Below are positions 4,001 through 36,629 of a DNA stretch of 64,000 bases, one piece after another. The stretch comes from Oscillospiraceae bacterium (GTDB lineage Bacteria > Bacillota > Clostridia > Oscillospirales > Oscillospiraceae), in NCBI GenBank assembly GCA_017540645.1, contig JAFYAQ010000023.1:1-64000 (forward strand), given 5' to 3'. The translations under genes were made by a program, and so were the position numbers. Within the stretch, counting starts at the first letter, position 1, and each line of letters starts with the position of its first letter. The notes below the pieces were generated by a model that was given only the letters and a program-made list of their open reading frames with translations, was not told where the DNA came from and made no database searches.

Positions 4001-4738
4001 ATGCTGGAATTACGACATCTTTCTTATGCTGTGGACGGCCCCGAGGGGCAGACCGATATTCTGAACGACATCTCTCTGGTGATCCCGGATAACAAGCTGG
4101 TGGTGCTGACCGGCCCCAACGGAGGCGGCAAGACCACCCTGGCCAAGGCCATCATGGGTCTGGTGACCCCCTCCGCCGGCTCCATTCTCTGGAACGGGGA
4201 GGACATCACCGCCCTGTCCATCACGGAGCGGGCCAAAAAGGGCATCAGCTACGGCTTTCAGCAGCCGCCCCGGTTCAAGGGCATCAAGGTCAAGGACCTG
4301 CTGGCCATCGCCAGCACCCGGAAACTGCTGAAGAAGGCGGAGGCCTGCGCCTATCTGACCCAGGTGGGCCTGTGCGCCACGGATTACCTGGACCGGGAGG
4401 TGGACGCCTCCCTCTCCGGCGGCGAGGTCAAGCGCATCGAGATCGCCACCATCCTGGCCCGCCATCCCGCGCTGATGATCCTGGACGAGCCCGAGGCGGG
4501 CATCGACCTGTGGAGCTTCGCCCGGCTGACGGAGACCTTCGGGGATATCCGCGCCAGGGAGGAGTGCACCATGGTGATCATCTCCCACCAGGAGCGGATC
4601 ATCTCCCTGGCCGACGAGATCCTGGTGATAGACCAGGGCCGCATCGCCCGGCGGGGCAGCCGGGACGAGGTGTTTTCCGAGATCGCCAGAAGTACCAGAG
4701 GCGCCTGCCCGGCCCTCTATGGGGAGGAGAAGAAATGA
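4001..4738 (+). CDS. sufC: SufC-type Fe-S cluster assembly ABC ATPase
   Basis: SufC is the soluble ATPase that drives the SufB/D scaffold in iron-sulfur cluster assembly. The 245 residues hold Walker A GPNGGGKTT (38-46), the QQPP Q-loop segment, signature LSGGE (about 138), Walker B LMILDEPEAGIDLWS and the switch histidine in IISHQ. The DEPEAGID wording and the partner gene are typical of SufC, not of a transporter ATPase. Start ATG at 4001 follows AAGGAG (3986-3991). The stop overlaps the ATG of the next gene (ATGA), so the two are translationally coupled. No sufS, sufU or sufD is present in the window, so this is a two-component SufBC or SMS-type system. Confidence 0.92.
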   Translation: MLELRHLSYAVDGPEGQTDILNDISLVIPDNKLVVLTGPNGGGKTTLAKAIMGLVTPSAGSILWNGEDITALSITERAKKGISYGFQQPPRFKGIKVKDLLAIASTRKLLKKAEACAYLTQVGLCATDYLDREVDASLSGGEVKRIEIATILARHPALMILDEPEAGIDLWSFARLTETFGDIRAREECTMVIISHQERIISLADEILVIDQGRIARRGSRDEVFSEIARSTRGACPALYGEEKK

Positions 4739-5720: not shown

Positions 5721-6260
5721 ATGAGCGGCTTTGAGGAAAAGGACTACCGGATATTTGAGCTGTTTCACAAGCAGCTGGGTCTGGTGACGGCGGGGAGTTT
5801 AGAGCGCTTCAACGGCTGCACCATCGGTTGGGGCAGCCTGGGGACCCTGTGGACCCGGCCGGGGGAGAGCGGCGCCGTGATGACCGTTTACCTGCACCCG
5901 GCCCGCTATACCAACGATTTTATGCTCCAAAACGACTTTTTCACCGTCAGCTTTTTCCCGCCAGAGTACAAAAAGGCCCTGGGCATCATGGGCAGCCGCT
6001 CCGGCCGGGACGGGGACAAGGTGGCCGCCGCGGGGCTGACGCCCATCCCCGTGGGGGAGAGCGTGGGCTATCAGGAGGCCGAGATGATCTTCCTGTGCCG
6101 GAAGCTCTACCAGCACCAGTTTGCCAGGGAGGATATAGCCCCGGAGATCCGGGAATACTACCGGTCCAATCCCCGCTCTTATCCCGTGGACGAAAACGGC
6201 GGCTGGCAGCCCCACTGGGTCTATGTGGGGGAGATCCTGGAGGTCCGGGAAGCCAACTGA
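5721..6260 (+). CDS. Flavin reductase-like (FMN-binding split barrel) protein
   Basis: 179 residues related to the flavin reductase-like domain family. Supporting stretches are FNGCTIGWGSLGTLWTRP, the VYLHPARYTNDFMLQNDFFTVSFF motif region, ALGIMGSRSGRDGDKV and YQEAEMIFLCRKLY, all usual for clostridial members. It probably binds FMN and passes electrons, but the partner is not visible. Start at 5721 follows AAAGGAG. It lies 59 bases after sufB and may share its transcript; both then end at the terminator at 6281-6314. A link to Fe-S biogenesis is possible but unproven. Confidence 0.82.
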   Translation: MSGFEEKDYRIFELFHKQLGLVTAGSLERFNGCTIGWGSLGTLWTRPGESGAVMTVYLHPARYTNDFMLQNDFFTVSFFPPEYKKALGIMGSRSGRDGDKVAAAGLTPIPVGESVGYQEAEMIFLCRKLYQHQFAREDIAPEIREYYRSNPRSYPVDENGGWQPHWVYVGEILEVREAN

Positions 6261-35337: not shown

Positions 35338-35366
35338 AGTTTACCTCAAAGCCGCTCACAAGTCAA
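35338..35366 (-). promoter_or_regulatory. tdk: Promoter of tdk-deoD
   Basis: Minus strand TTGACT (35361-35366), 17-base spacer, TAAACT (35338-35343). Confidence 0.7.
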
Positions 35367-35426
35367 CGTGCCGAAGCATAAGCTGCCATGGTAGACCGAT
35401 TTTTTGTAATGAAGGAGTGGTGCTGC

Positions 35427-36629
35427 GTGCGTATTGCCGTCACGGGGAAGGATCTTCGTTTTGCCATCCTGCGCCAGCTGCTGGAAAGAGACGGGCATAC
35501 CCTCGTCTCCCCGGAGGAGGCGGAGCTGGTGGTGCCGCCGCCCTGGGACGGGGCGGCCCGCTATGCCCGCTCGGAGAGCTATCTCATCGCCAACGCCGCC
35601 CTCACCGCCCAGGGCGCGGCGGAGCTGCTGGGCCGGGAGGCGCCCCTCCCCGGGCGCCGGGTGCTGATCCTGGGTTACGGCCGGGTGGGCCGGCTCACCG
35701 CCCGTGCCCTCCGGGAGGGAGGCTGCGCCGTCACCGCCGTGGCCAGAGATAAGGCCCAGCGGGCCTGGGCCCGGGCGGAGGGCTGCGCCGCCGCGGATTT
35801 TTCGGCGCTGCCGGAGCTGCTGGGCCGGGCGGAGATCGTAGTAAACACCGTGCCTGCGCCGGTGCTGCGGTCGGAGCTGCTGGCCCGCACCCGGGCGGAC
35901 GCCGTACTGCTGGAGCTGGCCTCCGCCCCGGGGGGCATTGACGCCGCCGAAGCCCGGGCCCTGGGCCGGACCTATCTCCGGGCCGAGGGTCTGCCGGGAA
36001 AATATGCCCCGGACCGGGCGGCAGCGCTCATCCGGGACGCGGTGTACGAGACGCTCGCAGCGCCCCGGCCCCGGCTGGGGGTGGCGGTATGCGGCTCCCA
36101 CTGCTGCTTTGCCATGACCCTTCGGGCCCTGCCGCCCCTGAGGCAGGACTACGACCTCATCCCCATCCTGTCCGGCGCGGCGGCGGACACGGACACCCGC
36201 TTTATGGCGGCAGAAGACTTTCGCTCCCGGCTGGAGGAGCTGTGCGGCCGTCCGGCCATCGACAGCGTCGCCGGGGCGGAGCCCCTGGGCACCGGGGAGG
36301 CCCTCTCCGCCCTGCTGATCGCTCCCTGTACGGGGAATACCCTGGGGAAGCTGGCCAACGGCATCACCGACGGGCCCGTGACCATGGCGGCCAAGGCCCA
36401 TCTGCGCAACGGCCGGCCGCTGATCCTGGCCATCTCCACCAACGACGGTCTCTCCGGCTCGGCGGAGAACATCGGAAAGCTGCTGCAGCGGAAGAACGTG
36501 TACTTTGTCCCCTTCCGCCAGGATGCCCCGGAGGCGAAGCCCTTCTCCCTCCAGTCCGACTTCTCCCTGCTGGGCCAGACGGTCGCCGCCGCCCTCCGTG
36601 GCCGCCAGCTCCAACCTCTGCTGCGATAA
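35427..36629 (+). CDS. dpaAB: Fused dipicolinate synthase, DpaA (SpoVFA) + DpaB (SpoVFB)
   Basis: Dipicolinate synthase makes the spore core chelator from a lysine-pathway intermediate in the mother cell. The 400-residue chain joins both subunits. Residues 1 to about 210 resemble DpaA: Rossmann VLILGYGRVGRLTA, VVNTVPAPVL, LELASAPGGID, EGLPGKYAPDRAA, with an N-terminal region some 50 residues shorter than B. subtilis DpaA. Residues about 214-400 resemble DpaB: LGVAVCGSHCCF, RPAIDSVAGAEPLG, LLIAPCTGNTLGKLANGITD, PVTMAAKAHLRNGRPLIL, LQRKNVYFVPFRQD, ending LQPLL. GTG start at 35427 is chosen because AAGGAG (35412-35417) is nine bases upstream; ATG 35388 or 35409 are alternatives. I see no frame break at the junction. 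Confidence 0.9.
   Translation: MRIAVTGKDLRFAILRQLLERDGHTLVSPEEAELVVPPPWDGAARYARSESYLIANAALTAQGAAELLGREAPLPGRRVLILGYGRVGRLTARALREGGCAVTAVARDKAQRAWARAEGCAAADFSALPELLGRAEIVVNTVPAPVLRSELLARTRADAVLLELASAPGGIDAAEARALGRTYLRAEGLPGKYAPDRAAALIRDAVYETLAAPRPRLGVAVCGSHCCFAMTLRALPPLRQDYDLIPILSGAAADTDTRFMAAEDFRSRLEELCGRPAIDSVAGAEPLGTGEALSALLIAPCTGNTLGKLANGITDGPVTMAAKAHLRNGRPLILAISTNDGLSGSAENIGKLLQRKNVYFVPFRQDAPEAKPFSLQSDFSLLGQTVAAALRGRQLQPLLR

Follow-up and report, generated by a model that had tools for sequence, protein, structure and literature searches.

The window analysed here is a 64,000-nt stretch of contig JAFYAQ010000023.1 from an Oscillospiraceae bacterium (GenBank assembly GCA_017540645.1). A frame of 400 uninterrupted codons (35427-36629, + strand), read directly from the sequence, encodes a reduced DpaA followed by a complete DpaB, the two subunits of dipicolinate synthase. 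The GTG at 35427 was taken as the start, a choice supported by the AAGGAG at 35412-35417. The gene, its parts and its signals are as follows:

35358-35385, + strand: sigma-K-type promoter-like site, AC (35358-35359), 17 bp, then CATA (35377-35380) followed by nnCTG
35412-35417, + strand: ribosome-binding site AAGGAG, 9 nt ahead of the GTG, read from the sequence
35427-36629, + strand: fused dpaA-dpaB gene, GTG start at 35427, TAA end at 36629, 400 aa plus stop
35427-35573, + strand: residues 1-49, what is left of the N-terminal domain of DpaA (a strand, a helix and short strands), delimited by alignment and models
35574-36062, + strand: residues 50-212, the linking helix and the NAD(P)-binding Rossmann domain from DpaA, delimited by profile match, conserved columns and model
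36063-36626, + strand: complete DpaB flavoprotein domain, residues 213-400, delimited by profile match, solved-structure match, conserved columns and model

The initial annotation described one frame holding a shortened DpaA and a complete DpaB, and the profile matches agree with it, as DpaA and DpaB models match successive parts of the open frame. The DpaB model NF006161 matched residues 216-399 with 229.6 bits (cut-off 156), and the older DpaB model TIGR02852 gave 209.5 bits, under its cut-off of 229. For DpaA, NF006162 matched residues 51-211 with 125 bits (cut-off 261) and TIGR02853 gave 96.9 bits (cut-off 319.65); neither of these two models produced a full-length DpaA match above its curated cut-off, the match being limited to positions 127-289 of the 297 in NF006162. 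The stretches LASAPGGID, LPGKYAP, APCTGN and QLQPLL, on which the annotation was based, are all present in the order given. Residues 50-212 carry GxGRxG, NTVPAPV, LASxPGGID and GLPGxYAP, so that the signatures by which the Rossmann domain was judged (GxGRxG, NTxP, LASxPGG and LPGxxAP) are all kept, and the DpaB part carries GSHC, APCTGNTLGKLANGxTD, KAHLRNGRP, STNDGLS and GRQLQP. By sequence, the closest solved structures are those of DpaA (3d4o, 2rir) for residues 52-213 and of DpaB (3mcu, 3lqk) for the second half.

Structure prediction of the whole chain, proposed earlier as a check, gave a confident AlphaFold model (pLDDT 95.1, pTM 0.81). Its residues 1-212 superpose on DpaA 3d4o (Z 23.7, 2.0 A over 212 residues) and its residues 213-400 on DpaB 3mcu (Z 28.6, 1.4 A over 176 residues).

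Public genomes, when scanned, yielded two orthologues, one from sheep rumen (L032, 65% identity, start at 6001) and one from goat rumen (L033, 66% identity, start at 4041), in which all 400 residues are covered in one frame, with the same DpaA shortening and the same uninterrupted junction as in the window gene. These loci are the same DNA as genomes G203 and G202, respectively. A further genome, G201, has both parts of the fusion in two pieces at two contig ends, with the break inside the DpaA part. All four genomes, G201 included, share the shortened start of DpaA and a divergent thymidine kinase gene next to the fusion; past the kinase gene lie a gene for purine nucleoside phosphorylase and a cluster of lipoprotein/ABC transporter genes. 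A frameshift or missing stop near 36060-36080, merging two genes by error, had been named as what could undo the original reading. Nothing was found in favour of such an artefact beyond its general possibility in draft genomes; the same open junction in two independent assemblies of other species from other animals, at 65-66% identity and with the same N-terminal shortening, rules out this cause and leaves an assembly or sequencing artefact with a negligible probability. The fusion is genuine and conserved, a variation on a known enzyme and not a novel type of system.

Substitutions lean towards silent sites over the whole gene: dN is below dS in every part, the N-terminal remnant included (pN 0.16-0.32 versus pS 0.35-0.46). 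The fusion keeps nearly all columns of the NAD domain and of DpaB that are conserved at ≥ 90% (27 relatives each). Relative to 27 DpaB sequences, the columns I72 (to V), P80 (to T) and D158 (to A) changed in all three full-length fusions, and a few more changed in one or two of them. The DpaB part is better conserved between species than the NAD part (pN 0.13-0.20 versus 0.24-0.31), as would be expected if the DpaB part made DPA by itself and the DpaA remnant, deprived of its N-terminal determinants, served as a scaffold. This seems improbable to us, given that none of the three full-length fusions departs from GxGRxG, LASxPGG, NTVP and GLPG in its DpaA part and that B. subtilis requires both subunits (PMC9024752).

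The word 'shortened', as used in the initial annotation, is correct for the DpaA part but too mild. An ordinary DpaA of this family counts about 285-300 residues, and its N-terminal domain of about 120 residues is cut to about 50 in the fusion, a loss of ~70 residues relative to separate DpaA. The model of one separate DpaA (L111, pLDDT 95.5) displays five main strands in its N-terminal domain, ahead of a long linking helix (122-143); the corresponding part of the fused-protein model comprises a strand (2-5), a helix (10-21) and a short strand (34-36), with the linking helix starting at residue 50. Pfam DpaA_N (PF16924) went undetected in three fused proteins at E values up to 1, and matched three separate DpaA proteins with E values of 2e-20, 4e-17 and 1e-24. 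The remnant retains a G.D.R motif, the proline-rich strand end and an N...TA motif. The second G of GGD, G98, D117 and R121 (L111 numbering), all with little or no variation among 27 separate DpaA proteins, are missing, with an arginine one residue out of register in the case of R121, and E134 is kept in one of three fusions. As most of this domain and several invariant residues are gone, activity should not be taken for granted. The loss of what would be the substrate domain could mean that the protein makes no DPA and acts as another NAD(P)/flavin enzyme or as a non-catalytic protein; we regard this as unlikely, since the NAD-site and DpaB motifs are almost wholly kept and since separate DpaA proteins with a partly shortened N-terminal domain exist in another genus. 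The latter are about 235 aa long (L141:868-1566, L142:820-1524 and L145:874-1578 (-)), with DpaA_N still weakly recognisable, and they suggest that the N-terminal domain tolerates loss.

In three further genera of this family, dpaA is altered in a different manner. Inserts of 12-21 kb that carry a large serine-recombinase-like gene (525, 532 and 544 aa) interrupt it at identical codons (ANAVP[T/G]A; ANAVPTA followed by EGA):

L149:1614-13993: dpaA insert in genome G074
G562 contig 8, about 78.0-98.1 kb: dpaA insert in Flintibacter muris (L047, L174, L175)
G014 contig 13, about 14.7-36.0 kb: dpaA insert (L140, L176, L177)

The insert of G074 is flanked by the 20-bp direct repeat GCCAATGCGGTGCCCACCGC, and its removal in silico restores the full dpaA frame; Flintibacter muris (G562) and G014 are laid out alike, with shared ends that are shorter. 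Judged from their sequences, these inserts look like excisable, skin-type intervening elements of a sporulation gene. Such elements are known in sigK, spsM, spoVFB, gerE and yabG, among others (PMC10747680, PMC5595907), and our literature search found no report of one in dpaA. Genome G029 possibly represents another kind of dpaA insertion: a tyrosine-recombinase-like frame (L150:2326-2853) lies near a DpaA that begins only at its NAD half (L004/L150), and the N-terminal half appears as a weak match on another contig.

The host is a gut or rumen spore-forming bacterium. Its genome, rated 100% complete, contains SpoIVA, two SpoVAC/AEb-type genes and SASP, and the fusion is the sole DpaB found in it, because of which the fusion very probably supplies DPA. 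Sigma factors of the E/K type are present as well; their matches to the sigma-K model are strong yet under its cut-off, so that sigma-E and sigma-K are not told apart. AC-17-CATAnnCTG recurs upstream of the gene, at one and the same position, in each of the four fusion loci. The broader pattern AC-N15..18-CATAnnnT[AG], which resembles the sigma-K consensus, lies within 150 bp upstream of 16 of 31 dpaA/fusion genes (12 dpaA loci of the family and the four fusion loci), compared with 0.5 in mononucleotide shuffles. The AAGTCAA stretch within the conserved site (TTGACTT on the - strand) may also belong to the promoter of the divergent thymidine kinase gene. Both the retention of this sporulation-type site and the position of the fusion as the only DpaB beside spore genes argue against a protein that makes no DPA.

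Surveys of the order and the class were samples of one genome per species, with best matches listed; 354 of 394 genomes in the order and 291 of 391 in the class match the fused profile somewhere. Among the matches listed in these two surveys, each one spanning both halves has at least one stop, except that of the window itself. The DpaB parts of the four fusions form one clade (support 100/99), and together with the lack of any other stop-free DpaA+DpaB among the listed matches this makes the fusion look restricted to one genus and of single origin. Candidate fusions elsewhere in the family (open frames of up to 514 aa) were rejected, as dpaA and dpaB are out of frame in each one inspected; high G+C alone explains these long frames around dpaB. 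The idea that the fusion fills a gap in Clostridia lacking DpaAB does not hold, as most genomes of the family carry ordinary, separate dpaA and dpaB genes. The fusion is a derived form within one genus, and our literature search found no report of a DpaA-DpaB fusion.

Inside the genus, the fusion is present in four of nine genomes (that of the window, G203, G202 and, split, G201). Whole-genome searches of the other five detected no DpaAB or remnants thereof; a 31% match in G156 to residues 74-139 was dismissed as a generic dehydrogenase-type match. Four of these five genomes retain the surroundings of the thymidine kinase gene, with no dpaAB beside it. SpoIVA and SpoVAC-type genes occur in four of the five (G084, G204, G156 and G200), and SASP in G084, G204 and G156. 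With five of nine genomes devoid of the gene and four of these equipped with spore genes, DPA synthase appears dispensable in the genus. G084, G204, G156 and G200 possibly obtain DPA by another route or form DPA-free spores; true spore-formers without dpaAB are known, and EtfA apparently substitutes in some clostridia (PMC3533761). That relatives live without the fusion is in line with a protein that makes no DPA. It also limits the proposal that the fusion might explain spore DPA in this lineage, which very probably holds for the window's organism, with its sole DpaB beside spore genes, and would not extend to the five genomes in which no DpaAB was detected.

Taken together, we think it likely that the gene encodes an active single-chain dipicolinate synthase of the mother cell in late sporulation, which arose once from a dpaA-dpaB pair and whose activity we infer. 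DPA synthesis in B. subtilis needs both DpaA and DpaB and starts from 4-hydroxy-tetrahydrodipicolinate (HTPA) (PMC9024752); we take the fused chain to perform the same reaction. As a late mother-cell product of sporulation, it would most likely turn HTPA, which DapA supplies, into dipicolinic acid, and for this the NAD(P) domain of its DpaA part and the flavoprotein fold of its DpaB part would act together, tethered at 1:1. Its single origin would lie in or near the base of the genus, in an ordinary pair whose genes were joined when dpaA lost its stop or when the frame changed where the two overlap. A small change would have been enough, because dpaA and dpaB abut or overlap in nearby relatives; in L089, the last base of the DpaA frame is the first base of the chosen DpaB start. 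The cut of the DpaA N-terminal domain to about 50 residues would be a separate, larger change in the same lineage, common to all fused genes. We lean, by a modest degree, towards the view that a synthase can work as a single chain and with no canonical N-terminal DpaA domain, and that ~50 residues plus the tethered DpaB bind the substrate.

DPA (dipicolinic acid) confers heat resistance on spores. The division of chemistry between DpaA and DpaB is unsettled, and a natural minimal chain would show which parts are dispensable, as well as that the two subunits can function at a fixed 1:1 ratio. If ~50 residues plus DpaB indeed suffice, the location of the active site would be redefined and a compact, single-gene DPA synthase would be at hand. 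A one-gene enzyme would be convenient for expression, structural work and DPA bioproduction. Annotation by DpaA_N or by full-length DpaA models would miss DpaA in this genus.

Among known systems, the nearest relatives are the dpaA-dpaB pairs of other Oscillospiraceae (L084, L034, L111 and others), with a DpaB identity of 62-67% in the nearest group. Their genes are adjacent or overlapping and many have the same promoter pattern, but they are separate, with a full DpaA of about 285-300 aa in which DpaA_N is recognisable. The short separate DpaA proteins (L141, L142 and L145) share a shortened N-terminal domain with the fusion, whereas they are not fused to DpaB and the domain is less reduced. 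The DpaA-DpaB of Bacillus (SpoVFA-SpoVFB; 2rir/3d4o and 3mcu/3lqk) resembles the fusion in its A-then-B order, NAD(P) motifs, complete DpaB, both folds and sporulation setting, but consists of two chains, where the window gene encodes a single one with a DpaA N-terminal domain of about 50 residues.
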